From a virus, in the IMG/VR virus record IMGVR_UViG_3300013126_003015, positions 1 to 45,729 of that record: a stretch of 45,729 nucleotides of DNA; one strand, given 5' to 3'. Below the pieces are notes generated by a model that was not told the DNA's origin, did no database searches, and saw only the letters and a list, made by a program, of their open reading frames with translations. Positions 1,381-41,238 of the stretch are shown here, piece by piece. Position 1 is the first letter of the stretch. Each line of letters opens with the position of its first letter. The translations under genes and the position numbers were made by a program.

Positions 1381-1393
1381 TTTATTATAAATA
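1381..1393 (-). promoter_or_regulatory. Phage-type promoter motif for phoH
   Basis: On the minus strand this reads TATTTATAATAAA, ending 7 nt before the phoH ATG. It matches the motif found before seven other starts in this window. It contains a TATAAT box so close to the start codon that the transcript would be leaderless or nearly so. Activity is inferred from recurrence only. Confidence 0.6.
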
Positions 1394-1395
1394 TC

Positions 1396-2397
1396 TTATT
1401 GTAACAAGTTCTTTAAAATTTTAGATATTTTTTCAGCTGAATATCCATCACCATATGGTGAAACAACGTTGACTTTATAATTTAACAAATGGTGCTCAAA
1501 ATTTTTAATCAAATTTTTAGGTTCATCAATTAAAAAACTAGTTAACCCTAACGATTCTGGTCTTTCGGTTATTTTCCTACATACAAGACATTTTTTATTA
1601 AAAAAAGAACACTCTTCTTGAATACCACCGCTATCTGTTATAACTAATTTTGTTTTGATTAGCAGAGCCAATAATTCATGATGATTCATTGGTGGTACTA
1701 TAGTTACATGTGTCAAAATATCTTTATGTTTTTGCACATTTGGATTTGGGTGTATCGGTAAGATAAATTCTAAATCTTTATGTTTAATAGCTAATTTGTT
1801 TATTTCTTCAAACCATAAATCAATATTCTCATGGTTTTCTCTTCTGTGCATAGTAACCAATACTTTGTTATGGTATTCACATTCTTTTTTATATTCTACC
1901 AAATTGTCTAATACTGTATTTCCAACAACGTGTACTTGACCTAAAACTCTTTCTTTGAAAAGATTGTCAGCGTTTAAATTGGTTGGACAAAGGTGGATTT
2001 TAGCGATAGACGAAACGATTCTTCTATTATTTTCTTCTGGGTATGGGTTTTCATAATCATATGTCCTTAACCCAGCTTCTAAATGAATTACGTCTATTTT
2101 TCTATGCAATGCTGCTAGTGATAAACCAACAACTGATGTTGTATCTCCTTGAACCAATACATGTGTTATACCATCAAAAATAAATGAAGGGATATTCATT
2201 AAATTAGCAAGTACTGAATCCAATCTGTTATCAGACAATTCAGTCATTTCTAATTTGTAATCATATTCACCATTTGCTATATCTTTATGTTGTCCAGTAA
2301 AAAGAATTTTAAATGGAATTTCTTCTAATTCAAATTCTGTTATCAATGGTTTAATTTTGATATATTCTGGTCTTGTTCCGTATGTTAAAAGTATCAT
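1396..2397 (-). CDS. wecB: UDP-N-acetylglucosamine 2-epimerase
   Basis: A 333-residue protein with the family's signatures in order: GTRPEYIKIKPLI near the N terminus, LEAGLRT at 106-112, PEENNRR at 120-126, HRREN at 184-188 and TDSGGIQEE at 254-262. The non-hydrolysing family converts UDP-GlcNAc to UDP-ManNAc, a precursor of bacterial surface polysaccharides and of acidic sugars. It is somewhat shorter than cellular WecB (about 375 residues), mostly through short loops, but no catalytic segment appears lost. It is the last gene of the leftward glycan cassette and follows the GDPD-like gene by 17 bp. It could supply an N-acetylmannosamine-type sugar nucleotide to the glycosyltransferases upstream. 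Confidence 0.93.
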   Translation of the reverse strand: MILLTYGTRPEYIKIKPLITEFELEEIPFKILFTGQHKDIANGEYDYKLEMTELSDNRLDSVLANLMNIPSFIFDGITHVLVQGDTTSVVGLSLAALHRKIDVIHLEAGLRTYDYENPYPEENNRRIVSSIAKIHLCPTNLNADNLFKERVLGQVHVVGNTVLDNLVEYKKECEYHNKVLVTMHRRENHENIDLWFEEINKLAIKHKDLEFILPIHPNPNVQKHKDILTHVTIVPPMNHHELLALLIKTKLVITDSGGIQEECSFFNKKCLVCRKITERPESLGLTSFLIDEPKNLIKNFEHHLLNYKVNVVSPYGDGYSAEKISKILKNLLQ

Positions 2398-2414
2398 ATT
2401 TTATTTTTAATTTA

Positions 2415-2864
2415 CTAATTTTTTCTGTATTTGTCAACAAAATCACTACAAACACCAATAGCATTTGAAATATCATCGTCATTTAATTCTGGCATAACAG
2501 CTATACTATTTCTAATTGGTTGTTTATTAGGGAAAGCCCATATGTAATTAAAACTAGTTAGTGTTACAGTATCATTTTCATGCCAAAAATAATTAAATGG
2601 TAATGTATCAAAATTAGCATTAAAGAATTCTATTGCTTCTATATTTTTGCAGTGAATCCATAACTTTGAATTTCTATCTACTAACCATTTAGTGTCGATA
2701 CCGTATTGTGGTTCATCATGACCCAACCATAAAATATTATCTTTGTACCAAACATCAATTTCAACATCATAACCTTTAGTTATAGCCAAATCAATATAAG
2801 TAGGTTCATTTTCCCATGATTCAAGTCTGCCATTTACGTTTCCTCTATGTGCTATTAATTTCAT
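2415..2864 (-). CDS. GDPD/PI-PLC-like phosphodiesterase-fold protein
   Basis: A 149-residue protein with the pattern of a short glycerophosphodiester phosphodiesterase-like barrel: HRG at 6-8, an E-N-E-P element at 18-21, EIDVW at 35-39 and GHD at 48-50. These match the metal-binding and catalytic His/Glu/Asp positions in order. At about 150 residues it is much shorter than cellular GDPDs (about 250), so it may lack the C-terminal half of the barrel or act on another phosphodiester. Its ATG shares one base with the stop of the upstream fusion gene (TAATG), so the two are translationally coupled within the sugar cassette. The substrate is not deducible; it may remove or trim a polyol-phosphate or sugar-phosphate group. 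Confidence 0.65.
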   Translation of the reverse strand: MKLIAHRGNVNGRLESWENEPTYIDLAITKGYDVEIDVWYKDNILWLGHDEPQYGIDTKWLVDRNSKLWIHCKNIEAIEFFNANFDTLPFNYFWHENDTVTLTSFNYIWAFPNKQPIRNSIAVMPELNDDDISNAIGVCSDFVDKYRKN

Positions 2865-13732: not shown

Positions 13733-14919
13733 TATATTACGTTAAGATATTCTTTGATAACACCGTTTATTTCTAAATTAGAAACCTCGTTTGCATCATT
13801 AGACATTGTTATAGTTGTTTTCACTAATGGATTGTCATCACTAGCCACAAATAAAGCATTATGAAACTTTGTATTAACGATACTAGAACCGTTATACAAT
13901 CTATCCATATGTGCAATTATCTCATCATCAAATGTGTGAATTACATCAAATTTGTAATCTTTTACTTTGTATAACGTGTTTGGTTGTGACGGTGCTGGTC
14001 CATTTGGTGTGTTTATCGTCCATTTACCATCACCCAAGGCAAAACCTGGGGGTTGTTGGATGGCAGCTAGGTTTATACCGACTCTTTTAGCTTGAGTTGG
14101 TAACTTACCAGCAATGTTGGAACAGATAGTCACATCATGATTTTCACTTTTTAATTTTTTAGCAAATTCCAAAATGAGTTTACTCTTAGGATTATTGTCA
14201 TCAAAATTCAAAGCAGTAATCATTAATTTTAAACGCTCACCTTTTCTAAGTGTTTTTTTCAAACTAACTGGTAATTCATCTTTATATTTTTCAACAAATT
14301 TTTGTCTATTACTTTCCCATTGTTCGTTGGTCATACCAATTGATTGGTGATTAACTCTAATCAAAGTTGTTACACCAACTTTAACTCCAGATAAATGATT
14401 ATCAAAACAAAAACTAATATCGTAAAAATGGAATCCTTCAAACTCTTCATTGAATTTGTTTTTGATTCTATCTTTATTTATAGCAAAGAATAAACCATCA
14501 ACAATAACAGTTTCTTCAATTGTTTGTCCTAAATCATCTGAATAAGATGACAACCATGATTTACCTTCATGTGTATGAGCAACCCTACCATACATCTTTC
14601 TAGGGTTATCCCACCATCTACCGCTGCTTGGCATTTCTTTTGTACCAGCAACTCCAATGATACCATATTCTGGGTTTTTATCAAATAATTTAATTAATTT
14701 GTTACCCCATTGTTTAGTTTCGATTGTTATATCATCGTGACAAAAAACAACAATACTGTTTGTCGCTTTTTTTAAACCTTTATTATAAGATTTAGTTAGT
14801 GATTCACCTTTGTTAACTATTTCTATCACTTCAATGTGTTTATGTAACCCAGAACCTTTTATTAAATGTTCTTTATGTGTTGGGTTAGATTCTCTGGTAC
14901 AATATACTACTGTTATCAT
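13732..14919 (-). CDS. GT2 glycosyltransferase with extra C-terminal half-domain
   Basis: A 395-residue protein with two parts. Residues 1-228 form a GT-A domain: YCTRESNPTHKEHL opening, NKGESLTKSYNKGL, the metal-binding HDD at 61-63, IIGVAGTKEMPSSG, DGLFFA at 141-146 and HFYD at 164-167. This is the pattern of bacterial GT2 enzymes that recognise a long acceptor. From about 229 a second unit begins (LKLMITALNFDDNNPKSKLI) that looks like the N-terminal half of a GT4 acceptor domain, with KFDVIHTFDDE near 325, but no donor half follows. The second unit may be a degenerate binding module. It overlaps the 14916-15182 gene by 4 bp. Confidence 0.82.
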   Translation of the reverse strand: MITVVYCTRESNPTHKEHLIKGSGLHKHIEVIEIVNKGESLTKSYNKGLKKATNSIVVFCHDDITIETKQWGNKLIKLFDKNPEYGIIGVAGTKEMPSSGRWWDNPRKMYGRVAHTHEGKSWLSSYSDDLGQTIEETVIVDGLFFAINKDRIKNKFNEEFEGFHFYDISFCFDNHLSGVKVGVTTLIRVNHQSIGMTNEQWESNRQKFVEKYKDELPVSLKKTLRKGERLKLMITALNFDDNNPKSKLILEFAKKLKSENHDVTICSNIAGKLPTQAKRVGINLAAIQQPPGFALGDGKWTINTPNGPAPSQPNTLYKVKDYKFDVIHTFDDEIIAHMDRLYNGSSIVNTKFHNALFVASDDNPLVKTTITMSNDANEVSNLEINGVIKEYLNVI

Positions 14920-15182
14920 TCTCTATTTAAATTATATTTTGTTACAAAATCTTCGTAACTTATTTCTTCTGATGTATTATTACTAAATGCTACATTTGTA
15001 GTATATAACACTAAACCTTCAGTAGACAAATCTATTGAAGGTTCTAACGTATCTACAGCTGGTCTATTGTATACCCAGTGATTTTCATCATCTGATTTAC
15101 AAATAAACCTACCACCAAAAATACCAGCAGTTGAAGCGTGGTTTTTTAATTTTTCTATAAAATCTTGTTTCGTCATTTTCAA
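14916..15182 (-). CDS. Small protein of unknown function, first gene of glycan operon
   Basis: An 88-residue soluble protein beginning MKMTKQDFIEKLKNHASTAG, with one GIFGGRFICK strand-like segment and an acidic C terminus (SYEDFVTKYNLNRE). No motif is recognised. It is the promoter-proximal gene of the leftward operon and overlaps the GT2 gene by 4 bp, so it will be translated with it. A second ATG two codons in (MTKQDF) is an equally good start. Confidence 0.65.
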   Translation of the reverse strand: MKMTKQDFIEKLKNHASTAGIFGGRFICKSDDENHWVYNRPAVDTLEPSIDLSTEGLVLYTTNVAFSNNTSEEISYEDFVTKYNLNRE

Positions 15183-15201: not shown

Positions 15202-15232
15202 CAAATATATGGATTTATATTTGATTTGTCAA
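15202..15232 (-). promoter_or_regulatory. Host-type (Bacteroidetes) promoter for glycan operon
   Basis: On the minus strand TTG (15232-15230), a 20-nt spacer and TATATTTG (15209-15202) match the Bacteroidetes -33 TTTG / -7 TAnnTTTG promoter layout. It lies 19 bp upstream of the ATG at 15182 and points into the glycan cassette. It is one of four such sites here with the same 20-nt spacing. Use by the host sigma factor, probably early in infection, is inferred. Confidence 0.7.
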
Positions 15233-15253
15233 GGTTTTCACTAATTATCATTA

Positions 15254-15266
15254 TATTTATAAACAA
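15254..15266 (+). promoter_or_regulatory. Variant phage-type motif before GIY-YIG gene
   Basis: TATTTATAAACAA lies 23 nt before the ATG at 15290. It shares TATTTATAA with the phage-type motif but lacks the final TAAAA and is further from the start. A small CCAC-TTC-GTGG hairpin (15269-15279) lies between motif and ATG and could limit translation, as hairpins do for some T4 homing endonucleases. Weak. Confidence 0.3.
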
Positions 15267-15289
15267 ATCCACTTCGTGGTCGTTAAATT

Positions 15290-15994
15290 ATGGTAATATA
15301 TAAAACAACAAATTTGATTAATGGTAAAATTTACGTTGGTCAAGACTCAAAAAATAACCCGAAATATTTAGGTTCTGGTAAAATTTTAAAATACGCATTA
15401 AAGAAATACGGATTAGAAAATTTTAAAAAAGAAATATTAGAATATTGTAAAACTATTGATGAATTAAATGAAAGAGAAAAATATTGGATATATGAATTAA
15501 GTAGTACAAACAAAGATATTGGTTACAATGTAGGGTTTGGAGGTCAATCTGGTTGGATGTTAGGGTTAAAACATTCTGAAGATACAAAGTTAAATTATTC
15601 TATAAATAGAAAAGGAAAACTAATAGGTAAAAAAAACGGTATGTATGGTAAAAAACATTCTGATGAGTCTAAAAATAAAATGAGTAACCCAAAATTTGGT
15701 CAAGATAATGGTATGTATGGTAAAAAACATTCTGAGGAAACTAAAAAGAAAATGAGTGATAAATTAATTGGTGATAGTAACCCATTTTATGGTAAAAAAC
15801 ATTCTGAGGAAACTAAACAAAAGATGAGTGAAACTGCTAAAAAAAGAAAATGGTCACCTACAAGTAAAAAGGTAAGTGTAGGTGACCTAATCTTTGATAG
15901 TGCGACTGAAGCCGCTAGGTGTTTTAATATATCAGTAGGGACCGCTAGCTATAGGTGTAGAAATAATATTAAAAACTGGTCTTGGATTATTTGA
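15290..15994 (+). CDS. GIY-YIG homing endonuclease
   Basis: A 234-residue free-standing homing endonuclease. Residues 1-85 are the GIY-YIG nuclease (IYK at 3-5, YVG at 15-17, the EREKYWI helix at 61-67 and GYNVGFGG). Three NUMOD3 DNA-binding repeats follow, each with YGKKHS(D/E)E: 113-132, 137-156 and 161-180. A NUMOD1-type helix-turn-helix (KKVSVGDLIFDSATEAARCF) covers 193-226. Such enzymes cut a cognate site in related phages lacking the gene and so spread. All domains are intact. It stands on the opposite strand to its neighbours and its last 8 bp overlap the dUTPase 3' end, so the insertion is probably linked to the dUTPase or the glycan operon. Confidence 0.93.
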   Translation: MVIYKTTNLINGKIYVGQDSKNNPKYLGSGKILKYALKKYGLENFKKEILEYCKTIDELNEREKYWIYELSSTNKDIGYNVGFGGQSGWMLGLKHSEDTKLNYSINRKGKLIGKKNGMYGKKHSDESKNKMSNPKFGQDNGMYGKKHSEETKKKMSDKLIGDSNPFYGKKHSEETKQKMSETAKKRKWSPTSKKVSVGDLIFDSATEAARCFNISVGTASYRCRNNIKNWSWII

Positions 15995-16565
15995 TACCAG
16001 TACTACCATAACCACCAGTACCTCTTTCTGTATTTATTTCTATTTTATCGACTTTATTTAATTTTATAAAGTTTTTAGAAATCACTGAAGCTACAATTGC
16101 TTGGGCAATTCTATCCCCACCATTGATTGTAAATGCGTTATCGCTATGGTTAATTAATATTACACCTATTTCTCCTCTGTAATCTGAATCTATGGTTCCT
16201 GGTGAATTTAAAACTGTGACACCATATTTGGCAGCGAGACTGCTACGAGGACGAATTTGAATTTCAAAATTTTCTGGAATTTCAAAATATAAACCAGTTG
16301 GTATAATTCTAACACCTTTTGGGTGTATAGTTACTGGTGAATCTAAATTTGCTCTTAAATCAAACCCAGAAGAACCAGCTGTTGCGTACTCTGGGTCTGG
16401 GTTATTAGATTCATTTTTAAAATTGAAAGATAGTTTATGAGCATCTGGATTATCCACGATTGTCATAGTGTTAAATTCTTTATTAAAATCATCTTGAGTA
16501 TAACCACTATCTGGTTCATTCATCAAAAGGATTTTTTCTTTCATTTTTGTTAATAAGTCTTGCAT
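15987..16565 (-). CDS. dut: dUTPase
   Basis: A 192-residue trimeric-type dUTPase with motif 1 AGSSGFDLRA at 63-72, motif 2 RPRSSLAAK at 105-113, motif 3 GTIDSDYRGEIGV at 123-135 and the C-terminal motif 5 RGTGGYGSTG at 181-190. It hydrolyses dUTP to dUMP and pyrophosphate, keeping uracil out of DNA and feeding dTMP synthesis. It has about 45 extra residues at the N terminus (acidic, TQDDFNKEFN) compared with the 150-residue family norm. It is encoded directly after the HD-domain protein with a shared base (16565), under the host-type promoter at 17159-17189. Confidence 0.96.
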   Translation of the reverse strand: MQDLLTKMKEKILLMNEPDSGYTQDDFNKEFNTMTIVDNPDAHKLSFNFKNESNNPDPEYATAGSSGFDLRANLDSPVTIHPKGVRIIPTGLYFEIPENFEIQIRPRSSLAAKYGVTVLNSPGTIDSDYRGEIGVILINHSDNAFTINGGDRIAQAIVASVISKNFIKLNKVDKIEINTERGTGGYGSTGIK

Positions 16566-17128
16566 TATTTTTTGTTTTTTTCGTGTTTTATCGCAAAAAT
16601 TGCAGCAGTTTTTAATAAGTCACCTAACATTGAGTTATGATACTCAGCCATTTTGTCATCATTTTTATCTAAATTAATGATTGCACTGTATTCTTCTTCA
16701 GTAAATGAAATACCGTGTGACATAGCATAATAAACACTTCTTTCACCTACTCGCATAGATGTTAAGTCGTCATTAAACTCATACATTTTTCCTTGATTTT
16801 TTCTGTGCCATTCTGAATCACATGGCTTGTAAAGATTAGCTTTACCGATTTGATGAAGAAGACAAATTTTTAACAATGAGTTTTGGTCAACTCTTTCGTC
16901 CTCTGGTAAAGCGTTATTAAATTTTACGGCATAAGACCCTACTCTAAGAAGATGGTCAATTAGACCACCTTCAAAAGCGTTATGTAGGTCAGCCATAGTA
17001 GAAGCTGGAGCTTTAATAAAAGACTCCCCTAAAAATTTCATCAACTCTTCGTTCATGAAACCTAATTTTGTTGCTGTATCAAAATATTTTTTTGTGTTAG
17101 CAACGATTTTTTCTTGTTCTAAAGGCAT
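16565..17128 (-). CDS. HD-domain-like protein with altered catalytic residue
   Basis: A 187-residue protein of the HD hydrolase fold: HNAFEGGLIDH at 49-59 and LLHQIGK at 91-97. In active members the second element reads HDIGK; here the metal-binding Asp is Gln (Q93), and the later His expected in the 'eE..Ai..H' region is replaced (SAIINLDKNDD). It is therefore probably not a normal phosphohydrolase; it might be regulatory or bind a nucleotide. Active relatives act on (d)NTPs or other phosphomonoesters. It is the first gene after the host-type promoter and is coupled to dUTPase, which supports a link to nucleotide metabolism. Confidence 0.7.
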   Translation of the reverse strand: MPLEQEKIVANTKKYFDTATKLGFMNEELMKFLGESFIKAPASTMADLHNAFEGGLIDHLLRVGSYAVKFNNALPEDERVDQNSLLKICLLHQIGKANLYKPCDSEWHRKNQGKMYEFNDDLTSMRVGERSVYYAMSHGISFTEEEYSAIINLDKNDDKMAEYHNSMLGDLLKTAAIFAIKHEKNKK

Positions 17129-17158: not shown

Positions 17159-17189
17159 CAAATATACATTAAAAAAACCAATAAATCAA
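17159..17189 (-). promoter_or_regulatory. Host-type promoter for HD/dUTPase pair
   Basis: On the minus strand TTG (17189-17187), a 20-nt spacer and TATATTTG (17166-17159) give the Bacteroidetes promoter pattern, 30 bp before the ATG at 17128. The TTG overlaps the stop codon of the upstream gene (17186-17188), so the promoter was fitted into a minimal gap. Confidence 0.7.
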
Positions 17190-20750: not shown

Positions 20751-21194
20751 TTAAATTTTATTTTTTTTGTTATTATTCATATACTCTATTAAATATCTAA
20801 TTGAATCAATTTCTTTCTCAATTTCTTCGTTCATTGCTTCTTTATTAGACATTATTTTATTTTTTGTGCTTCCATCATGGTCGCTACCTTTTGTTACTTT
20901 TGGTACGCTAACAGATGTTGGGTCTTCTTTTTGATACATATTGTTTGGGTTTGTATCTTTTTGTGTTTCCCTTCTTGTTTTATCTTTTTTTTGTTCTTGA
21001 TGAACTAAATTTTCAACTTCTCTTAATCTATTATCACCACCCAAACGTTGATATTCTGAACAATCTTTGTTTTCCAAACACATTTGTTTAGCTTTTTTTA
21101 AACGAGATTCTTCCATAGCATAAGCTTTGTATTTCTTAGCCTCTTCATCCGTTTTGGTTTTAACAAACTTATCTTTTATTGCTCTGTTAGCCAT
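20751..21194 (-). CDS. Charged helical protein of unknown function
   Basis: A 147-residue, Lys/Glu-rich protein with predicted long helices (DKFVKTKTDEEAKKYKAYAM) and two Cys near residues 34 and 39 (MCLENKDCSEYQRLGGDNRL). The C terminus is an acidic helix (MNEEIEKEIDSIRYLIEYMN). No family is recognised. Its ATG shares its first base with the final base of the upstream gene's stop region (21194), so the two are co-translated. Confidence 0.7.
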   Translation of the reverse strand: MANRAIKDKFVKTKTDEEAKKYKAYAMEESRLKKAKQMCLENKDCSEYQRLGGDNRLREVENLVHQEQKKDKTRRETQKDTNPNNMYQKEDPTSVSVPKVTKGSDHDGSTKNKIMSNKEAMNEEIEKEIDSIRYLIEYMNNNKKNKI

Positions 21195-21682: not shown

Positions 21683-21690
21683 AATTTAAG

Positions 21691-21704: not shown

Positions 21705-21720
21705 TATTCAAACTATAGAA

Positions 21721-21734
21721 TATTTATAATAAAA
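21721..21734 (+). promoter_or_regulatory. Phage-type promoter motif, rightward
   Basis: TATTTATAATAAAA ends 11 nt before the ATG at 21746 of the large fibre gene. It is the consensus form of the motif seen upstream of 27350, 30865, 39211, 41247 (plus) and 1373, 21682, 36393 (minus). Confidence 0.7.
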
Positions 21735-21745
21735 CCGATAAAAAT

Positions 21746-24700
21746 ATGGGATTTAGAACGAAATTAGACTTTTCAAACAATAGACAAGTAAAACAAAGAA
21801 TAGAAACAACAACAGTTTTGTCTGGTGGAACATCATTTGGTGTGCCATTTAGTATGTTACCAACTGGACCAAACCCAAGTATTAGTTCTATCACACAATC
21901 AGTTAATTTTATAAATAGTACATTCTCTGGTAACAACACAACAACTGTATTTACATGGGGTGATAGTAGAATGAGCTTAGGTGAAAGTGCTTTATCAGCA
22001 ATAACACCTTCAAACTCAGCAACTACACAATCAACTGGAAATGTTTTCACACCTAATATATCTAGTGCGGTAGTTGTTGATGGAAATACTGGTTATACAA
22101 ATTATACTGGTGTTAGTTATAGTATTACAGTAACTGGTATGACAAATTTAGGTGGTGGAAATTATAGTGGTGCTGTTAATACACTAACACTTAATATTTT
22201 GACGGCACAAGGAATTGATTATACTGGAAGAACAATATGGAATGATACTTCTGGTATAACTAGAACCGATAGACTTATAATTAGTGATTCACCACAAGTT
22301 GGTTATGTTTGGACATGTATTGATTCGGAAGGTATGGGTGAATGGCAATACAATGGTTCTTCATCTGGTTCTACAATATGGACTGCTGGTACTGGTGCTA
22401 ATTCAGCTGTATTAGGCGGTTCTGGTGGTATTGCTAGTGGTTCAACTTCTGTTTCTGAAGGTACTAATACTATAGCTGGTGGTATTGGTTCACATGCTGA
22501 AGGTGCTAATACAAAAGCATATGGTAATTATTCACACGCTGAAGGTAATGGTACAATAGCATCTGGTATAACCGCACATGCTGAAGGTTATTTATCTCAA
22601 GCTGGTGATTATTCACATGCTGAAGGTTCTCAAACAATAGCAAGTGGTGATTATTCACATGCTGAAGGTGCTGGGTCTGTAGCTAGTGGTATACAATCAC
22701 ATGCTGAAGGTCAATCAACCGCTAGTGACGATTTTGCACACGCTGAAGGTGCTAATACGCTTGCAAGTGCTTCAGCATCACATGCTGAAGGTGAATATAC
22801 AATAGCTAGTGGAATTCGTTCACACGCTGAAGGTTATTACAGTGTGGCTAGTGGTCAAGGTGCGCATGCTCAAGGTGGTTATTATAATGGTGCTATAATT
22901 TTAAGTGGAGGTACAGCAACTGGAATTGCATCGCATGCTGAAGGTGTTAAAACAATAGCATCTGGTACAACTGCACACGCTGAAGGTTACGAAACACAAG
23001 CTGGTGATTATTCACATGCTGAAGGTGGTAATACAAAAGCATATGGTAATTATTCACACGCTGAAGGTTCTAATACTATAGCTAGTAATACTGGTTCACA
23101 CGCTGAAGGTGGTAGTACTATTGCGAGTGGAGTTGCATCACATGCTGAAGGTCTTAATACAATAGCATCTGGTATAACCGCACATGCTGAAGGTTATTTT
23201 TCTAAAGCTGGTGGTGCTTATTCACATTCTGAAGGTTATTTAACAATAGCATCTGGTACAAGTGCACATGCTGAAGGTTATTTATCTCAAGCTGGTGATT
23301 ATTCACATGCTGAGGGTTATCAAACAATTTCAACTGGTATTGGTTCACATGCTGAAGGACAAGGAACAATAGCTTCTGGTGCTGGTTCACATGCTGAAGG
23401 TAATGGTACAATAGCGACTAATACTTCATCACATGCTGAAGGTTCTCAAACAATAGCAAGTGGTGGGGTATCACATGCTGAAGGTGCTGGGTCTGTAGCA
23501 AGTGGTACTTATTCGCACGCACAAAATGCAGCAACATTAGCAAATGGTAATTTTTCACATGCTGGTGGTCAATATAATACGGCATCTGGTGACACATCGT
23601 TTACTCATTTTAAAGGTAATGTTTTAGATAAAACTCAATATGGTGCATCTGGTGATACATCAGCCATATTAGGTGGTAGGTTGCATAAAATAAAAACTGG
23701 TGCTAGTTATAGTGTTATTCTAGGTGGTGAATCAGTGACGATTGAGAGTAGTACAGCTAATTCAGCAGCTATTGGTAGTTATAGCTCAACAACATCAACT
23801 GGTTATTCCGCATTGATAGGTGCGTATGAATCTACTTTAGCTGGTGGTGGTGGTGGTTCTACATCTTTAATTTCAACATGGAAAGGTTACATATATAATA
23901 GTAATTTCTCTTCAATTATTGGTGGTTATAATAACATAATATCTGGTGTTACGGGTATTGATTATAGTGCTATTTTAGGTGGTCAAAATAATTTTATAAC
24001 AAGTAATGCTGATTTATGTGCAATTATTGGTGGTGATACAAACAAAATAAACCCAGGTGCTCAAAGAACCGTTGTTTTAGGTGGTCAAAACATAATAGGT
24101 AATTTATCAGATATGGTTTATGTCCCAGATTTGATTATTGATGGTTTGACATCTACAGACCCTTTAGCGACTGATATAAACGGTCAGATAGTGGCTGGTA
24201 CTTCAGATGCTAGACTTAAACAAAATATCCAAGATTTGTCTAATTCTTTAGATGTAATTAAAAACCTAAGAGGTGTTTCATTTGAATATACACCAGAATC
24301 AAACATGGGTGGTGGGTTACGTTATGGTTTTATAGCACAAGAAGTACAGCAGCACGTACCAATTATTGTTAGAGACAGAACTAAAGGTGATGGTATGTTA
24401 TCATTGAATTATAATGAAATAGTACCAATATTAGTTGAAGCAGTTAAAGAATTATCTACTGGTACTACGTCTTCAAATAATACGTATTTAGAAACACAAA
24501 CAATACTTGCTGAAGATAATAACATTGATTTAAACTACAATGGAACACAAGAAACAGCTATTGGTGGTGGTTTAATAGTTTTACATGCAAAAGGACAAGA
24601 TTCATCAGCTGAATTAATAACTGATAATAATGGTGATTTCGTAACAAACAACGATTTTAAACCTAGTGCATTAACAATACCTTTCTATACTCCAAGTTCA

Positions 24701-24805
24701 TCAAATGATGAGTCTGGTAATGAAGGAAATATAACTAGAGATGATAATTACTTATATTTAAAATGTTTAAATAAATGGAAAAGGGTTAAATTAGAAGAAT
24801 TTTAA
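21746..24805 (+). CDS. Long tail fibre/adhesin with YadA-head-like repeats and S74 chaperone domain
   Basis: A 1019-residue fibre. After an N-terminal part of about 220 residues (attachment region, Ser/Thr/Gly-rich), residues 249-617 hold 26 copies of a 14-residue SHAEG-x2-TIASG-x2 repeat, the left-handed beta-roll repeat of YadA/Hep_Hag adhesin heads, which bind surfaces as trimers. A second module (about 640-790) has repeated ILGG / IIGG-N strands. An S74 intramolecular chaperone follows with SDARLKQNI at 820-828 (self-cleavage expected between S820 and D821), FEYTPE and GFIAQEVQQ. Unusually, 110 further residues follow the S74 core, ending LNKWKRVKLEEF. It is expressed from the phage-type promoter. 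Confidence 0.92.
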   Translation: MGFRTKLDFSNNRQVKQRIETTTVLSGGTSFGVPFSMLPTGPNPSISSITQSVNFINSTFSGNNTTTVFTWGDSRMSLGESALSAITPSNSATTQSTGNVFTPNISSAVVVDGNTGYTNYTGVSYSITVTGMTNLGGGNYSGAVNTLTLNILTAQGIDYTGRTIWNDTSGITRTDRLIISDSPQVGYVWTCIDSEGMGEWQYNGSSSGSTIWTAGTGANSAVLGGSGGIASGSTSVSEGTNTIAGGIGSHAEGANTKAYGNYSHAEGNGTIASGITAHAEGYLSQAGDYSHAEGSQTIASGDYSHAEGAGSVASGIQSHAEGQSTASDDFAHAEGANTLASASASHAEGEYTIASGIRSHAEGYYSVASGQGAHAQGGYYNGAIILSGGTATGIASHAEGVKTIASGTTAHAEGYETQAGDYSHAEGGNTKAYGNYSHAEGSNTIASNTGSHAEGGSTIASGVASHAEGLNTIASGITAHAEGYFSKAGGAYSHSEGYLTIASGTSAHAEGYLSQAGDYSHAEGYQTISTGIGSHAEGQGTIASGAGSHAEGNGTIATNTSSHAEGSQTIASGGVSHAEGAGSVASGTYSHAQNAATLANGNFSHAGGQYNTASGDTSFTHFKGNVLDKTQYGASGDTSAILGGRLHKIKTGASYSVILGGESVTIESSTANSAAIGSYSSTTSTGYSALIGAYESTLAGGGGGSTSLISTWKGYIYNSNFSSIIGGYNNIISGVTGIDYSAILGGQNNFITSNADLCAIIGGDTNKINPGAQRTVVLGGQNIIGNLSDMVYVPDLIIDGLTSTDPLATDINGQIVAGTSDARLKQNIQDLSNSLDVIKNLRGVSFEYTPESNMGGGLRYGFIAQEVQQHVPIIVRDRTKGDGMLSLNYNEIVPILVEAVKELSTGTTSSNNTYLETQTILAEDNNIDLNYNGTQETAIGGGLIVLHAKGQDSSAELITDNNGDFVTNNDFKPSALTIPFYTPSSSNDESGNEGNITRDDNYLYLKCLNKWKRVKLEEF
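22490..23600 (+). repeat. 42-bp coding repeats (SHAEG array)
   Basis: About 26 in-frame units of 39-45 bp, one of about 69 bp, all beginning near TCACATGCTGAAGGT. Some stretches are exact duplicates far apart: 22574-22623 equals 23264-23313 (50 bp), and 22508-22546 equals 23030-23068 (39 bp). This shows recent unequal recombination or gene conversion in the array. Confidence 0.9.
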
Positions 24806-24806: not shown

Positions 24807-25514
24807 ATGAGTGGTTTGAAATATAAAATAGATGATTTAATTGATTTAATCAATCAATACAAAAGTACTGATGAAATAGCTACTTTTTACAATGTTAGTG
24901 GTAGAACTGTTAGATATTGGTTTAAAAAAGAAGGTCTGGAATCAAAAGTTAAATATAAAGGTTATGATAATTTAACAAATTTAGATGAAGGTAAAAAGAA
25001 AGAAAGAATTGAAAAGTCGATAAAAAGTAATAAATTAAAACTAAAAGATAGAGTCAAATGTGTTTGTGAAACATGTAAAGAAGAATATTTAGTTAAAAAA
25101 TCAGTCTTTAAAATAGGTTCTAGATTTTGTAGTCGAAAATGTTTATACACATATTTATTTAAAACAAATCCAGAAAATCATCCAAGATGGTTGGGTGGTA
25201 AAACACAAGAAAATCAAATTGGTAGAAGTAATCTAGAATATGTTGAATGGCGAATTAATGTTTGGAGGCGAGATTTTTTTACTTGTCAAAAATGTTTTAG
25301 TGTTGGTAAAAACTTAAATGCACATCATATTAATTCTTGGTCAAATAATATTAATGAAAGATATTGTATTGATAATGGGATAACGTTGTGTAAAGATTGT
25401 CACAAAGAATTACATAAAAATTATGGACAAAAAACTGATATAACCAAACTAGTTGATTTTTTAGGAATTAAAACATCATCTGGATGGAAAAGAACTAATT
25501 TAGAAAGCTTCTAA
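24807..25514 (+). CDS. HNH homing endonuclease
   Basis: A 235-residue protein inserted between two fibre genes. It has a helix-turn-helix at about 22-43 (TDEIATFYNVSGRTVRYWF), Cys pairs C87/C90 and C108/C112 that look like a zinc ribbon, and an HNH nuclease with C160-x2-C163, NAHHINSW (H173, H174), N190, C195-x2-C198 and H199/H203. The last nine residues, WKRTNLESF, resemble WKRVKLEEF at the end of the upstream fibre, and the underlying 31 bp are about 74% identical, so the gene is bounded by a duplicated fibre 3' end. It starts 1 bp after the fibre stop and its own stop overlaps the next ATG (TAATG). Confidence 0.9.
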   Translation: MSGLKYKIDDLIDLINQYKSTDEIATFYNVSGRTVRYWFKKEGLESKVKYKGYDNLTNLDEGKKKERIEKSIKSNKLKLKDRVKCVCETCKEEYLVKKSVFKIGSRFCSRKCLYTYLFKTNPENHPRWLGGKTQENQIGRSNLEYVEWRINVWRRDFFTCQKCFSVGKNLNAHHINSWSNNINERYCIDNGITLCKDCHKELHKNYGQKTDITKLVDFLGIKTSSGWKRTNLESF

Positions 25515-27298: not shown

Positions 27299-27326
27299 TG
27301 ATAAACTGCTTTTTTGATTTAATGAA

Positions 27327-27339
27327 TATTTATATAAAA
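27327..27339 (+). promoter_or_regulatory. Phage-type promoter motif
   Basis: TATTTATATAAAA, a one-step variant of the TATTTATAATAAAA motif, ends 10 nt before the ATG at 27350. Confidence 0.6.
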
Positions 27340-27349
27340 GACTTTAAAC

Positions 27350-29422
27350 ATGCCAAATTTTTTAATTTTAAGAACATTAACAAGCCCTTATGGTGACGCA
27401 ACCAAAGGTAGTGTATTAAGCCAATCAGAATTAGATGATAACTTTATCTTTTTAAAAGGTAATGTTATATATACAGCCTTAACTAACAATGGGTTAGTTA
27501 CACTTAAAAAATATAATGGAGAAGACATAGTATTTAGCGGTGGTACTAGTGGTAATGGTATTGATGTATTTGTTACTGGTGGTACTTATTCTAATGGTAT
27601 AACTACGTTTACTAACAATACTGGTGGTACATTTACTATTTCAATACCTTCATCATATGATGCTGGTCCAATAACTGGTGCAACTAATTGGTCATCAACT
27701 GGTACTGGTCAAATTAATTTACCTCAGATAGATGTTGCTTTATATGATAATGGTGGTAATTTAAATGATACTAAAATTTATACGGTAAATAGTGGTACAA
27801 CTGGTTATGGTTCAATACCTTCTTTGACTGATAACGATACTAATTATATTGTTATCGAGTATAACGGTGGTTCACCTATTTATAATGTTTATAATAATGA
27901 TGGTGTGGTAAATGATAGTGATGTTATTTTGATGTATGTTGTTTATCGTTTTGGTAATTTTATCCATGTTTTAGAATTTGGTGATTATGGTGCTGGTTTA
28001 GCTAATAAATTAAATGATAGAATCATGATGACTGATAGATTTGGTTGGGAAACTGGTTTGATGATTAGTTTAAGTGGTTCTACTGGTGTTGTTGCACTTA
28101 CATCTGGTGTTGCGTGGAATGGTCCTTATAGACAAACACTTACAGCTGTTAACTCACAAGATGACATATTCTTTAAAAATTATCATATTGGTGGAGCATG
28201 GACAGCAGATACTAGTGGGGATTACTTAAATAACACGTATTATGATAATGGTACTGATATTGTTAGTGCTACAACTGGTAATTATTTAATTAATTATTAT
28301 TATAGAGGACAAGAAACAAATGACCATTTATATGAAGTTTATGGTAATGGGGAATACGCTAGTGTAGCTGAAGCTGAAGCTGCTAATTCACCATCTTTAC
28401 CAGAATTAATCACTTCACATGCATTCTTAGTCGGTAGGATTGTTGTTAAGGTTGGTGAAACTACTGGTTCAACACAAACAGCTTTTGGTACTGTGTTCAC
28501 AGCAACTGGTTCAGTTCCGTCATCTGGTAATCATAATGATTTAACTGGGATTCAAGGTGGTACTGGTGGTGAATATTACCACCTAACATTCAATGAGTAC
28601 AATAATAACGCTTATAAAAACGTAGATAATAACTTTGCTAGTGGTCAAACAATAAATAGTTACCTAAAAGTTGGTGTAAGTAATTTCATCTCAACAACTT
28701 CTGTTGGAACGATACTTTCAAGTCAAAGTGGGTATTTAGTTAATTCTAGTTATTCAAGTATATTAGCTGGTCTAGGTAATAGAATAGAGGGTCTAGGTGT
28801 TAATTCCCTAGGTTCAACCACAATTGTTGGTGGTGATAGTAATACTATATTAGATACAACAAGTGATTCAGATAGGTCATCAATAATTGGTGGTGTTAAT
28901 AATATAATTAACGACTCAACATCGTGTTCAATACTTAGTAGTTCGTTATCTAGGATTACCACAACATCAACAAATTCAATAATCGTTGGTGGTCTTGGTA
29001 ATAGGTTAGTAGATGTTGATAACACAGTTATTTTGGGAGGACAAAATATAACTGGTACTACAAGTAATACTGTTTATATACCTAATTTGGAAGTTAGAGG
29101 TCAATCAAACAACCCAATTTATACTGGTAGTACTGCTTCTGCTTCTTACACACCTAATTGGGATAATAGTAACTTACAATCAATAACGTTGACTGGTGTT
29201 ACTTCAGTTAATGATGGTACAAATATTAAAAATGGTGCTGTTTATACGCTTATAGTAAAACAAGATGCGACTGGTAGTAGAACTATTAACTGGGGTACTC
29301 AATACAAGTGGCAATCTGGTATTGCACCAGTTTTAACTTCTTTATCAAACGGTATTGATATCCTAACATTTATAAGTGACGGTACAAACTTGTATGGTCT
29401 AATTGCAAAAGATTTTAGATAA
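27350..29422 (+). CDS. Tail fibre protein
   Basis: A 690-residue fibre. Its N terminus (MPNFLILRTLTSPYGDATKG, SQSELDDNFIFLKG) resembles phage baseplate or fibre attachment regions, and the sequence IDVFVTGGTYSNGITTFTN also appears in the 41247-42686 fibre (DTYVTGFTYSNN), so the two share a building block. A central domain of about 300 residues is followed by hydrophobic beta repeats at about 465-580 (SSIIGGVNNI, NSIIVGGLGNRL, NTVILGGQNITGTTS, TVYIPNLEVRG), homologous to a module in the 21746 fibre. The C-terminal 90 residues (NGAVYTLIVKQDATGSRTIN, WGTQYKW) form a small beta domain seen in other phage fibres. The stop overlaps the next gene start (TAATG). Confidence 0.82.
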   Translation: MPNFLILRTLTSPYGDATKGSVLSQSELDDNFIFLKGNVIYTALTNNGLVTLKKYNGEDIVFSGGTSGNGIDVFVTGGTYSNGITTFTNNTGGTFTISIPSSYDAGPITGATNWSSTGTGQINLPQIDVALYDNGGNLNDTKIYTVNSGTTGYGSIPSLTDNDTNYIVIEYNGGSPIYNVYNNDGVVNDSDVILMYVVYRFGNFIHVLEFGDYGAGLANKLNDRIMMTDRFGWETGLMISLSGSTGVVALTSGVAWNGPYRQTLTAVNSQDDIFFKNYHIGGAWTADTSGDYLNNTYYDNGTDIVSATTGNYLINYYYRGQETNDHLYEVYGNGEYASVAEAEAANSPSLPELITSHAFLVGRIVVKVGETTGSTQTAFGTVFTATGSVPSSGNHNDLTGIQGGTGGEYYHLTFNEYNNNAYKNVDNNFASGQTINSYLKVGVSNFISTTSVGTILSSQSGYLVNSSYSSILAGLGNRIEGLGVNSLGSTTIVGGDSNTILDTTSDSDRSSIIGGVNNIINDSTSCSILSSSLSRITTTSTNSIIVGGLGNRLVDVDNTVILGGQNITGTTSNTVYIPNLEVRGQSNNPIYTGSTASASYTPNWDNSNLQSITLTGVTSVNDGTNIKNGAVYTLIVKQDATGSRTINWGTQYKWQSGIAPVLTSLSNGIDILTFISDGTNLYGLIAKDFR

Positions 29423-30837: not shown

Positions 30838-30843
30838 TTAGGA

Positions 30844-30857
30844 TATTTATAATAAAA
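30844..30857 (+). promoter_or_regulatory. Phage-type promoter motif
   Basis: TATTTATAATAAAA ends 7 nt before the ATG at 30865; consensus form. Confidence 0.65.
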
Positions 30858-30864
30858 ACAAAAT

Positions 30865-31239
30865 ATGGAATTCTTTATAAATAAAAACGCAACATTACCA
30901 AAATTAAAACTTGAGTTAATCAAGGATGGTAGAAATGATTTTAGTAAATTTCACGACAAAATACAAAACGCAAATATAACGTTTAGTATGAGTGATGTTG
31001 TGACTGGTGTTAAACGCATAGCTTGTTCTGAAGCAACAATAGAAGAGGTTGTACCAGAAAACACATGTGTTTGTGACGAATTCTATCTTGTTTATCAATT
31101 CACATCAAAACAAACATCTGTTGCTGGTAGATATGTTGGTCAATTTGAGATTGAATTTTTAGATGGTAGTGGTACACTTATTGTTCCTATTAGAGAAGAA
31201 CTATTTATCAATGTTTTAGAGGGCTCAATTAAAAAATAA
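30865..31239 (+). CDS. Small virion protein, BppU-like N-terminal fold
   Basis: A 124-residue protein: PKLKLELIKDGRNDFSKFHD, ANITFSMSDVVTGVKRIA, YLVYQFTSKQTSVAGRYVGQ, FEIEFLDGSGTLIVPIREEL, FINVLEGS. The order of strands and the QT-x-V-AGRY-x-GQF segment resemble the N-terminal part of phage baseplate upper proteins (BppU), which anchor receptor-binding proteins. Two Cys pairs (C53; CVC at about 68-70) are also present. The likely role is a fibre adaptor; assigned with moderate confidence. It is followed by a terminator-like hairpin. Confidence 0.6.
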   Translation: MEFFINKNATLPKLKLELIKDGRNDFSKFHDKIQNANITFSMSDVVTGVKRIACSEATIEEVVPENTCVCDEFYLVYQFTSKQTSVAGRYVGQFEIEFLDGSGTLIVPIREELFINVLEGSIKK

Positions 31240-31314: not shown

Positions 31315-31345
31315 TTGTCAAAACACAAATTAATTAGTACATTTG
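31315..31345 (+). promoter_or_regulatory. Host-type promoter for DNA polymerase
   Basis: TTG (31315-31317), a 20-nt spacer and TACATTTG (31338-31345) match the Bacteroidetes promoter. The ATG of the polymerase is at 31362, 16 nt after the -7 box. The spacing is identical to that of the two host-type promoters at 15202 and 17159. Confidence 0.72.
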
Positions 31346-35214: not shown

Positions 35215-35246
35215 AAAAAAGGGGCTTAATCGCCCCTTTTCTTTTT
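35215..35246. terminator. Bidirectional terminator between convergent genes
   Basis: AAAAGGGGC (35217-35225), loop TTAATC, GCCCCTTTT (35232-35240), flanked by A and T runs on each side. It lies between the polymerase stop and the convergent virion gene stop (35245) and has the shape of an intrinsic terminator in both directions. Confidence 0.88.
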
Positions 35247-36393
35247 AATATACCCAGAACCCTAGTGGTCTGAATTTCATAGCTTTGTTAAGATTTTCAG
35301 CTTCTGTTGCACCTCTTTCTAACTGTTTAGTTGATGATAATCTTTCTAACCTTAAATCAAGTCTTTCTAATACAGCTCTTTTCTCATCATTACCTTCAGA
35401 TAGTAATGTATCATAATCCATAGTTCTTTCAGCCTCTGGTGGACCAACTATACCACCAAATTTACCTCTCACTCTACCTAACGTTCTTTTTCCTTCAGCA
35501 ATAAATAACTGACGAATAAGAGTTTTTGTTGGTTCGTTGAAGTCAGCGTAATCTAATTTTGATAATGGGACTTGATTAGGCATTTTGATGATATCTGGAT
35601 TGTCTTGTTTACATTGGTCAACATTGTCTGGGTTAGTATCATAATAGAAATACCATACTTGACAACCAGTTAAATTGATAGCACTAGCACTACCAACACC
35701 ACCGATACCTTGTCCAAACGACAATTTAGAACCAGGTGTACTCATCAAATGTAATAATTTAGTACCGTTTGGACCAGCAGTTATTTTATGAACTAATTCA
35801 CTTCTAACAATTCTATTTTTTAAGTTCATATCAGCAGCTGTTAATAATATATCAAAAGCTGGTGCGATGTAATAACCAGAACGTGCAAATCCAGGACCGC
35901 CCGTTCCTACACCACCACCTACTTGTGAGAAACCACCACCAAAACCATAGTCAATACCACCATAGTTAGCTAACAAAGCTTGGCTAGTTGCTGGTGGTGT
36001 TATCCACAATACTTCATTTATTTCACGACCAGCTGGTATTTGATAAACTTGTCTTCCTTCTTCAAGTGTAACAAAGTCTTTTTTAAGTTCCCATGGCCCT
36101 CTAGTTTGTAAACCAACTTGTTTTGAATACGCATAAGTATATTGTGTCATGAAATCAAAATTTCTAACACTCAAAGCAAATGCCATATCCAATGTATCTA
36201 CATTTTGTCCTAAAAGCGATTGCCACTGATGTTCAATCAACCATTCTTGTACGTATTGTGCGTAATCCTCAATACATATTTCTAAAAGAGTACATAATTG
36301 GTCATCAGTTAATTCTATTTGACGTATGGGCGCACCCAACGAATGTCTTAACTGACGGAACAATTTCTCTTTTTCTTCTAAACTAACTCCCAT
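35245..36393 (-). CDS. Virion protein, possibly neck or head-completion
   Basis: A 382-residue protein. The N-terminal 130 residues are mixed alpha (LTDDQLCTLLEICIEDYAQY, VQEWLIEHQWQSL, TLDMAFALSVRN) followed by RGPWELKKDFVTLEEGRQVY and the QIPAGREINEVLWITPP segment. A Gly-rich stretch (GGIDYGFGGGFSQVGGGVGT) and a beta-rich part follow. The combination of helical N terminus and beta C-terminal body with Gly-rich loop resembles neck/connector components of marine T4-like phages, but I cannot name the T4 equivalent. It is transcribed from a phage-type promoter at 36405-36418. Confidence 0.6.
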   Translation of the reverse strand: MGVSLEEKEKLFRQLRHSLGAPIRQIELTDDQLCTLLEICIEDYAQYVQEWLIEHQWQSLLGQNVDTLDMAFALSVRNFDFMTQYTYAYSKQVGLQTRGPWELKKDFVTLEEGRQVYQIPAGREINEVLWITPPATSQALLANYGGIDYGFGGGFSQVGGGVGTGGPGFARSGYYIAPAFDILLTAADMNLKNRIVRSELVHKITAGPNGTKLLHLMSTPGSKLSFGQGIGGVGSASAINLTGCQVWYFYYDTNPDNVDQCKQDNPDIIKMPNQVPLSKLDYADFNEPTKTLIRQLFIAEGKRTLGRVRGKFGGIVGPPEAERTMDYDTLLSEGNDEKRAVLERLDLRLERLSSTKQLERGATEAENLNKAMKFRPLGFWVY

Positions 36394-36404: not shown

Positions 36405-36418
36405 TTTACTTATAAATA
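36405..36418 (-). promoter_or_regulatory. Phage-type promoter motif, leftward
   Basis: The minus strand reads TATTTATAAGTAAA, with one or two changes from the consensus, 11 nt before the ATG at 36393. The flanking bases give TATATTTATAAG. Confidence 0.55.
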
Positions 36419-36505
36419 TAAGAATAAACACAATTATGCTAAAAATTTCTTTGTTAATTTTTGTAACTTTTTAATACCAAACCAGTCTTTTATTAAAATA
36501 ATAGA

Positions 36506-36529: not shown

Positions 36530-37034
36530 ATGAAAAACTAATCATTTTATTAATGAAGCTAAATTAATCCATGGTGATAAATATGATTATTCATTAGTTA
36601 ATTATAAAAAATCTAAAAACAAAATAGATATTATATGTAATAAACATGGGTCATTCAAACAAACACCAAATATGCATTTAAAAGGCCAAGGTTGCCCTAT
36701 TTGTAAAGAATCAAAAGGTGAAAAGAAAGTAAGAGAGTTTTTAATTAAACATAATATTATTTTTATACCACAACACACTTTTTTTGAATGTAAAAACACA
36801 AATGTTTTACCTTTCGATTTTTATTTACCAGATTATAATACATGTATTGAATATGATGGGATACAACATTTTAAACCAGTTAATAGATTTGGTGGTGAAA
36901 AAGGGTTTTTATTAACTAAACAAAATGATTTAATAAAAAATAAATTTTGTTTAGTTAATAAAATAAACCTAATTAGAATACCTTATTTTGATAATATTAC
37001 ATCTCATTTAAAAACTTTATTACCAATAAGCTAG
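36530..37034 (+). pseudogene. PD-(D/E)XK-type homing endonuclease, frameshifted at start
   Basis: A protein of about 167 residues is readable from 36543 (HFINEAKLIHGDKYDYSLVN) to a stop at 37034. It has a N-terminal module typical of phage homing enzymes with ICNKHG and CPICK cysteine/histidine clusters. A nuclease domain follows: FDFYLPDYN, CIEYDGIQHF, NDLIKNKFC, LIRIPYF (Vsr/PD-(D/E)XK-like). The expected ATG at 36530 is in another frame: ATGAAAAACTAA stops at once. Removing one A from the run of five restores MKTNHFINEAKL. It is thus broken by a 1-bp insertion, or is read by slippage, or starts internally at ATG 36672. Its 3' end overlaps the glutaredoxin gene by 38 bp. Confidence 0.75.
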
Positions 37035-39161: not shown

Positions 39162-39191
39162 GTCTATTCGTGTTAATAAGTAAAAGATAAA

Positions 39192-39205
39192 TATTTATAA
39201 TAAAA
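39192..39205 (+). promoter_or_regulatory. Phage-type promoter motif
   Basis: TATTTATAATAAAA ends 5 nt before the ATG at 39211; consensus form and the shortest spacing. Confidence 0.65.
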
Positions 39206-39210: not shown

Positions 39211-39732
39211 ATGGATAACAAAAAAATAACCCCAATCACACGTATAAATAAGTTTTTTTCTGAAGAAGATTTTAACTTAGAAATAAATATGGGTAGAGAA
39301 GCTATTGAAGGTGATGGTAACTTTACACTTATTTTGTATCGTGTTGATAGAGAGAGTAGTGCATCTGATAATTTATATGGAGAGGCACCAAAAGATGGTA
39401 TTAAATATTTTCCACCAGTTGAAATAAAGGTTATACCTATTTTAGCTGAAGCTGAGAATAAAACATATAATTCAAATGGTGGTCTTAGATATTTACAAGA
39501 TGGTCAGTTAACTTTTGGTATTTATGATAGTCAATTAAAAGAGTTAAAAACAGAAATTAGTTATGGTGACTATATTGGTTATCCAGTAACTGAAACAGAA
39601 ATAAGATATTTTAGTGTGGTTAATGATGGTGTTAAAAACTATGATAATGCACACACAATAATGGGTTACAAAGGTGCATTTAGAACGATTGTATGTGCAT
39701 CTATTGACGCTAGTGAATTTAGAGGTATGTAA
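39211..39732 (+). CDS. Virion protein (head-tail or tail)
   Basis: A 173-residue protein with LEINMGREAIEGDGNFTLIL, VEIKVIPILAEAENKTYNSN, GGLRYLQDGQLTFGIYD and GDYIGYPVTETEIRYFSVVN. The strongly patterned beta sequence with few charges near strands is like small T4-like tail/neck structural proteins; I cannot name the exact T4 equivalent. It starts a plus-strand late operon with the next virion gene (7 bp apart) and is preceded by a phage-type promoter. Confidence 0.6.
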   Translation: MDNKKITPITRINKFFSEEDFNLEINMGREAIEGDGNFTLILYRVDRESSASDNLYGEAPKDGIKYFPPVEIKVIPILAEAENKTYNSNGGLRYLQDGQLTFGIYDSQLKELKTEISYGDYIGYPVTETEIRYFSVVNDGVKNYDNAHTIMGYKGAFRTIVCASIDASEFRGM

Positions 39733-39739: not shown

Positions 39740-40804
39740 ATGGGAATGCAAAAAGGATATATGACCAATATCAACATCCATCCAGGAAAAATTGGTCCAG
39801 AAAGAAGACAAGAGATTTTAGATGACATATCTGATAGAGGGACTTTTTTACCTAGAGGGGTCTTGGAGGAAGATATGGACCAAACTGTTGTTGAGTTCTT
39901 AACATCTGATAACAGAATGGGTTTAACTATTGATGGAGAAAAAGTTCCCGTTATATTTTTAACCATTCAAAGATGGACCGAATTTAGTAAAACATGGCAA
40001 TTTTCTGATAAATTTAAAAACATTGAATTACCATTTATTACTATTGTCAGAAAACCAGATATTCAACAAGGTCAAAATCAAGCTGGTTTGTGGAATATTC
40101 CAGTTAGTAGAACATATACTTACATGAAAGTACCAACTTGGGACGGTGTTAGAAGAGGTGTTGATTTGTACAAGATACCACAACCAACATCTGTTGATTT
40201 AACTTATGAGGTTAGATTATTTACTAACAGAATGAAAGATTTGAACAAATTCAATAGATTAATTCAAAGAGCTTTTCAATCTAGACAATGTTATATAACA
40301 GTAAATGGTCATCCAATGCCACTACACTTGGAATCGATAGGTGATGAAAGCAATATTGATGATTTTGAAAATAGAAGATTTTATGTTCAATTATTCGAAA
40401 TGAAATTGTTAGGTTACATTTTAGATGAGGATGATTTTGAAGTAATACCGACAATAAATAGAAGTGTTGTATCGTTAGAAGTTGAGGATAGAAAAATATT
40501 TAGAGATGGTGATATAGTGTTTGAACCTACAAAAGTTAAAAATACTGTAACATATTCATTTGTATTTAAACCAGGTGGTAACACAACGTTTACTTTTTTA
40601 TGTCCATACTCAATTAATTTTACACAAATTGTTGAAATAAATAACATTACTAGAATTGTAATTAGTGTTAATGGTGTTGGTGTTTTTGATGGGACAGTAA
40701 TGACTACACCTATCGTTGTAAATTCAAATGATAGTGTGACAATAAAAGTATATAAAAGTGCTTATACTCTAGGTGAGTTTAAAATAATTGGTAGTACAAT
40801 ATAA
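39740..40804 (+). CDS. Virion structural protein
   Basis: A 354-residue protein. The first 30 residues (GYMTNINIHPGKIGPERRQE) and the segment LFTNRMKDLNKFNRLIQRAF, then SRQCYITVNGHPMPLHLESI, are typical of a phage head-tail or tail-tube related protein. The C-terminal 110 residues form an extra beta domain (RSVVSLEVEDRKIFRDGDIV, NTVTYSFVFKPGGNTTFTFL, NGVGVFDGTVMTTPIVVNSN) of the sort that decorates fibre or capsid proteins. Downstream fibre genes make a tail role more likely. An ATG two codons downstream is also possible. Confidence 0.6.
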   Translation: MGMQKGYMTNINIHPGKIGPERRQEILDDISDRGTFLPRGVLEEDMDQTVVEFLTSDNRMGLTIDGEKVPVIFLTIQRWTEFSKTWQFSDKFKNIELPFITIVRKPDIQQGQNQAGLWNIPVSRTYTYMKVPTWDGVRRGVDLYKIPQPTSVDLTYEVRLFTNRMKDLNKFNRLIQRAFQSRQCYITVNGHPMPLHLESIGDESNIDDFENRRFYVQLFEMKLLGYILDEDDFEVIPTINRSVVSLEVEDRKIFRDGDIVFEPTKVKNTVTYSFVFKPGGNTTFTFLCPYSINFTQIVEINNITRIVISVNGVGVFDGTVMTTPIVVNSNDSVTIKVYKSAYTLGEFKIIGSTI

Positions 40805-40809
40805 CGAAA

Positions 40810-41214
40810 ATGGTAAATAATTATAGACCACTATATCATTCTGACATAAACGAAACGTTTATTATTGAACCAGAGGGTAATTCTGGTTCAACTATTATTT
40901 CTGCGTGTACAGCTGTTTTTACTAATTCAGTTATTTCATGTAGTGGTGATTCTCAAATTAATTTATCAACTGGTGTTATTGAAATTGATTCTAATTTAGA
41001 ACCAAATGTTGATGCAAACTTAGATTTAGGTTCATCAGTTAGAAGATTTAGAAATATAAGCACTGTAAGTGGTACTTCAACAGTTTGGACATCGACAATA
41101 AAAGTAACGACACCTACTTTAGATTTAGGTATCGATTCACAAGGTAATGTAAGGCAGATTACTGCTAATAATTCAATAATACAAGATGATTCATTATTGG
41201 GTGGAACTTATTAA
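40810..41214 (+). CDS. Short fibre-associated protein
   Basis: A 134-residue protein: INETFIIEPEGNSGSTIISA at the N terminus, then beta repeats with VDANLDLGSSVRRFRNIST and TIKVTTPTLDLGIDSQGNVR. It ends DDSLLGGTY, similar to the end LDGGSY of the next fibre and GGTY of the small remnant ORF at 42788. The LDLGSSxRRFRxI segment is a common trimeric fibre motif. It is likely a short fibre or fibre tip. Confidence 0.65.
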   Translation: MVNNYRPLYHSDINETFIIEPEGNSGSTIISACTAVFTNSVISCSGDSQINLSTGVIEIDSNLEPNVDANLDLGSSVRRFRNISTVSGTSTVWTSTIKVTTPTLDLGIDSQGNVRQITANNSIIQDDSLLGGTY

Positions 41215-41224
41215 AAAACTAATA

Positions 41225-41238
41225 TATTTATATAAAAA
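41225..41238 (+). promoter_or_regulatory. Phage-type promoter motif
   Basis: TATTTATATAAAAA ends 8 nt before the ATG at 41247; variant with TATA in place of TAAT. Confidence 0.6.

Follow-up and report, generated by a model that had tools for sequence, protein, structure and literature searches.

The element ATATTTATA-N3-AAA, found immediately upstream of genes in an uncultured virus fragment and in its relatives, is probably the late promoter of a large group of T4-like Bacteroidetes phages, and the sequence comparisons described below suggest that it is read via a gp55-like sigma protein. In the mechanism that we propose, TATTTATA would serve as a −10-type box; TTG is not conserved at −33, and the only feature upstream is a T-rich stretch at a distance of one to two helical turns. 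Transcription would start within the AAA, probably three to five bases past the box, and the resulting leader of about 6–12 nt, free of a Shine–Dalgarno (SD) sequence, would fit the Bacteroidetes ribosomes. The host RNA polymerase would be redirected to TATTTATA by a conserved phage sigma-like protein of ~240 aa, a putative distant relative of gp55, and the early, replication and metabolic genes would be placed under host-type TTG...TAnnTTTG promoters. If so, the T4 kind of late-gene switch extends to abundant large phages of the Bacteroidetes, in which the box differs and the messages would be nearly leaderless, and the motif offers a simple late-gene marker for hundreds of uncultured phage genomes that are rich in unknown proteins.

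The motif in the window

The window, i.e. the whole stretch of DNA analysed, is a 45,729-base virus fragment with ~30% G+C, whose genes include phoH, DNA polymerase, helicase, tail-fiber and glycan genes. We counted nine copies of ATATTTATA-N3-AAR (ATATTTATANNNAAR) in it, compared with 0.24–0.33 expected from Markov models of order 1–3, and the maximum reached in 150 simulations was four copies. The motif is real. All nine copies are located ≤45 nt upstream of an ORF on the same strand and none is within a gene, so the finding that would have spoken against a promoter according to the initial annotation, an equal frequency inside coding regions, was not observed. Each of the eight sites listed in that annotation was recovered at its named gene, on both strands, with its end 5–11 nt before the ATG. 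TATAAT, which had been pointed out within the motif, is missing at 27350, 36393 and 41247 and is therefore not the conserved element; what is conserved is ATATTTATA, three free bases and AAA. The messages had also been described as leaderless or nearly so. The predicted leaders are indeed short (6–12 nt), but they are not absent.

On the minus strand, the site ATATTTATAATAAAG (1380–1394) is 6 nt before phoH (492–1373) and is common to the phoH orthologs of three out of four genomes. A ninth site, ATATTTATAAACAAA (15253–15267, plus strand), had been overlooked; it precedes a GIY-YIG/NUMOD3 homing endonuclease gene (15290–15994), with 28 nt from core to ATG. A small hairpin (CCACTTCGTGG) is located between this site and the ATG, an arrangement which we take to be reminiscent of the I-TevI-type regulation of T4. 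The window also has HNH endonuclease genes at 24807–25514 and 36672–37034, one of them within a tail-fiber operon.

Two copies of ATATTTATAATAAAA are divergent partners. The one at 21691–21705 (minus strand) heads the gene 21194–21682 and the leftward run beyond it and is kept in 4/4 orthologs, and the one at 21720–21734 (plus strand) heads the tail-fiber gene 21746–24805 and is kept in 3/3. Both are accommodated within 63 nt (21683–21745), and inverted-repeat-like sequence is present on the flanks. The site ATATTTATATAAAAG (27326–27340, plus strand) heads a tail-fiber-like gene (27350–29422). For the remaining sites we compared distinct ortholog upstream regions. The ATATTTATAATAAAA copy at 30843–30857 (plus strand), heading 30865–31239, was present in 6/16 of such regions. 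The core of ATATTTATAAGTAAA (36405–36419, minus strand) was found in 41/44; this site heads 35245–36393, whose 382-aa product has a weak match to the PHROG head-tail adaptor. Similarly, the core of ATATTTATATAAAAA (41224–41238, plus strand), which heads 41247–42686, was found in 20/24. A further ATATTTATAATAAAA copy (39191–39205, plus strand) heads 39211–39732 together with its operon (39740 and 40810), and here the core was observed in 28/45 regions upstream of the first gene, in 5/51 upstream of the internal gene 39740 and in 1/39 upstream of 40810. The 39211 orthologs also share a conserved AAAATCAA(G/T)AGT-like element ~30–40 nt upstream of the late box.

The earlier statement that the polymerase, dUTPase and glycan operons lack the motif holds; host-type promoters stand instead before the DNA polymerase gene and before the genes whose starts are at 17128 and 15182. 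We identified TTG...TACATTTG at 31315–31345 (plus strand) before the DNA polymerase gene at 31362, and TTG...TATATTTG on the minus strand at 17159–17189, before the gene 16565–17128, and at 15202–15232, before the gene 14916–15182. Among the upstream regions of the DNA polymerase orthologs, 19/22 contain TAnnTTTG and one contains the late core.

Two promoter classes and a candidate sigma protein in the relatives

Using the window gene 39740 as a query, we obtained 80 related viral loci on contigs of up to 368 kb, and we read four large relatives (G001, G002, G005 and G010) from end to end. Counting words and motifs de novo recovered two promoter classes in each of the four; as an unconstrained EM motif search fused both classes, explicit cores were used to separate them. 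Class 1 (291 sites) consists of TTG, ~20 bases and TAnnTTTG, and is the known Bacteroidetes primary promoter. Class 2 (104 sites) consists of ATATTTATA, three free bases and AAA. TTG is missing from its −33 position, and the bases −17 to −14 relative to the box form a T-rich stretch, part of which may belong to terminators of the upstream genes. Of 86 full motifs, 74 were followed within 45 nt by a gene on the same strand. A third upstream word, ATTTGGTAGATT, was noticed in G001 and G002, 20–50 nt before genes; TTTGGTAG occurs 20 times in G002 against 0.3 expected.

The two classes partition the genes. Reciprocal-best ortholog pairs, which are mutually non-independent, comprised 45 pairs with class 2 on both sides, 46 with class 1 on both sides and only two clean mixed pairs; in three further pairs a class 1 gene had a partner bearing both classes. 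The motif is kept across orthologs although the flanks diverge, and it heads transcription units rather than internal genes. Genes with class 2 sites in the large relatives encode, among others, a head maturation protease, the tail tube and an endolysin; those with class 1 sites encode, among others, a primase, a protease that is ATP-dependent and a protein that binds RNA. Host-type TTG...TAnnTTTG promoters head replication and metabolic genes in the very genomes that also bear the late-type motif.

Among the relatives, Flavobacterium phage immuto (NC_055915) is cultured and annotated. In this phage, the box precedes the terminase, portal, sheath, tube, hub and tape measure genes and one tail spike gene. 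We found it at 8/20 annotated structural genes and at 0/44 annotated non-structural genes (p=3e-5), and the difference remained when only gapped genes were considered (8/12 versus 0/11, p=0.001).

The enrichment is specific to phages. ATATTTATANNNAAA was found 68 times in the four relatives (1.07 Mb) versus five times for a reversed control, whereas seven Bacteroidota genomes (~31 Mb), used as stand-ins for the host, showed no enrichment (65 versus 73). TATTTATANNNAAA was not enriched in five Bacteroidetes phages that do not have a gp55-like protein (5 versus 9), nor in phage LR756508, which has one. In the Microcystis phage Mel-JY01 (PP395634) the strict pattern is absent, yet the core TATTTATA is enriched upstream of genes (12 versus 1.3). 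The leaders of this phage are longer and SD-bearing, and TATATTTG words are found in it too. A literature search, which covered few subscription journals, yielded no prior report of the motif in Bacteroidetes phages.

What could read this motif? A phage-encoded RNA polymerase was rejected as the reader, because no RpoB-type match was found in 20 large relatives. A conserved protein of ~240 aa (~242) that matches sigma region 2 is present in 16 of these 20, and the four contigs without it (120–137 kb) are probably fragments. The search for a gp55-like sigma factor proposed in the initial annotation was negative within the 45.7-kb window and positive among the large relatives; the phage from which the window derives would presumably also encode the protein. 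No gp55-like relatives were found in bacterial genomes. Among 39 diverse family members, 28 have Sigma70_r2 matches and 20 match PHROG 234 (phrog_234, 'late sigma transcription factor'), weakly, with a best E of 6e-4. An hhalign comparison with the T4-type gp55 family gave an E of 2.3e-5 and a probability of 76%, collinear over ~112 columns with ~14% identity, and the probability was only 25% with a broader alignment. These alignments weakly suggest a remote homology to gp55. The C-terminus shows no evident gp55-like clamp tail. As for structure prediction, the first model was too poor (pLDDT 57) and the second was moderate (74.6); the best PDB matches of the latter were mostly sigma factors, including gp55 (7d7c_F, target-normalised TM 0.47), none with a significant E-value.

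In immuto, this candidate late sigma is gp118 (NC_055915, 78174–78872), so far annotated as hypothetical, and no other sigma-like candidate was found in this phage. This takes gp118 from a hypothetical annotation to a testable late sigma candidate, and as immuto is cultured, the proposal can be tested in it, along with the questions of how the box of a gp55-type sigma can change and of whether such a sigma can do without a clamp.

Other sigma proteins are also present in the group: G001, G002, G004, G005, G010 and others have one to three RpoD-like sigma factors (275–315 aa), and ECF-like sigma proteins (180–202 aa) occur beside the gp55-like protein in large relatives. Another reader is therefore possible in these phages, and an RpoD-like or ECF-like phage sigma could read the late promoter in place of the gp55-like protein. 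We consider this unlikely, since immuto combines the motif at its virion genes with a gp55-like protein and otherwise has no Sigma70_r2 match, and since the gp55-like protein is present in 16/20 relatives. The best-supported reading is a late class that depends on a phage sigma factor, which the initial annotation had proposed alongside a phage-modified polymerase; it is favoured by the virion-gene position in immuto, the phage-specific enrichment, the gp55-like candidate and the lack of a detectable RNA polymerase.

Promoter or ribosome site

A different function for the motif would be that of a translation-initiation signal, i.e. an A/U-rich element recognised by the SD-less Bacteroidetes ribosomes, perhaps together with a phage ribosomal protein. 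The SD sequence is rare (5/128 genes), in Bacteroidetes an A at −3, −6, −12 and −13 modulates translation (PMC6847099), and related Bacteroidetes jumbo phages encode bS21 (PMC9723584). However, internal genes of operons need translation equally and almost never have the core. It was found in 4/641 genes that abut their upstream neighbour, and loci from four sets of relatives gave 223/829 for gapped against 7/961 for abutting genes.

The spacing within the motif argues in the same direction. We observed that the distance from the AAA to the core is constant at every core-to-ATG distance. When ATG-aligned leaders were exchanged between genes, the A fraction dropped from 0.886 to 0.63, and the maximum in 2000 trials was 0.728. 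It is the core, and not the ATG, that fixes the position of the AAA, and therefore we concluded that the motif is a promoter and not a ribosome site. All gene classes, with or without the motif, have another A-rich signal, located at −13 to −9, along with A at −3, and a like A-rich signal near start codons has been described in F. johnsoniae (PMC6847099). Also, no bS21 match was obtained among the 20 large relatives, and a phage bS21 was rejected as a translational partner. The translation signal, which the initial annotation had kept as an alternative, is accordingly disfavoured, and we hold it to be highly unlikely.

The median distance of the class 2 core from the ATG is 14 nt. This puts the promoter AAA beside the A-rich translation position, a possible reason why this spacing is preferred. 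A more speculative coupling can also be imagined, in which the polymerase slips on the template TTT at the core-locked AAA and thereby adds short 5′ poly(A) heads to the late messages. Such heads would replace the SD sequence through an A-rich ribosome contact near −12, and one element would then couple late transcription to SD-free translation. Poxvirus late mRNAs have 5′ poly(A) heads that arise at TAAAT; for the phages described here, we regard slippage as a long shot.

A variant host sigma-A promoter or an alternative host sigma promoter, requiring no phage factor, is very improbable: the box is similar to TAnnTTTG, and the T-rich tract corresponds to an AT-rich element reported near −28 in F. 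johnsoniae (PMC6847099), but both the −33 TTG and the TTTG are missing, and neither the seven Bacteroidota genomes nor the five gp55-less Bacteroidetes phages are enriched.

Comparison with T4 and other known systems

Relative to the likely start, the class 2 box is placed as in the Bacteroidetes primary (sigma-A) promoter, which has TTG at −33 and TAnnTTTG at −7. A T- or AT-rich stretch upstream is common to both, but neither TTG nor TTTG is conserved in class 2. The leaders of F. johnsoniae have an average length of 33 nt, and 87% of them exceed 10 nt (PMC6847099). Even by the standard of the host phylum, therefore, the predicted phage leaders of ~10 nt (9–10 nt when the start is placed by the T4 or the Flavobacterium geometry) are short.

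The bS21-encoding jumbo phages from lakes are also large Bacteroidetes phages, and their structural genes are highly expressed in late infection; the text of that paper mentions neither a promoter motif nor a sigma factor (PMC9723584). The relatives studied here differ from them in bS21, which was found in 0/20.

The late promoters of T4 have one 8-bp TATA box at −10, no −35 element and AT-rich sequence downstream, and occur on both strands (PMC2988020). The class 2 sites are like the T4 late promoter (TATAAATA; gp55, gp33, gp45) in each of these features, as the 104 sites show a single conserved 8-bp box near −10 and no TTG at −33, and also in heading virion genes, as seen in immuto. With the gp55 family (PHROG 234), the candidate reader shares the sigma region 2 match, phrog_234 being the PHROG matched by most members; apart from the low identity, it differs in its length of ~240 aa and in an extra conserved C-terminal helical part that has no counterpart in the gp55 alignment. 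A sliding clamp equivalent to T4 gp45 was not recognised: no match to PF02767 was found, and the PF02916 search is uninformative as it matched nothing anywhere. The distance from core to ATG is 14 nt here, with SD in 5/128 genes, compared with 26.5 nt and 15/16 in T4, and a conserved AAA is present here at the expected start.

The boxes themselves also differ, being TATTTATA here and TATAAATA in T4. In G002, we counted TATTTATA 33 times against 4.3 expected and TATAAATA 14 times against 5.4, and the same counting method applied to the T4 sequence as a positive control returned TATAAATA (16 versus 1.0). TATTTATA is the exact reverse complement of TATAAATA, and its orientation relative to the genes is clear. 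As its consensus differs from that of T4, we do not class the motif as a T4 late promoter, though it would work like one.
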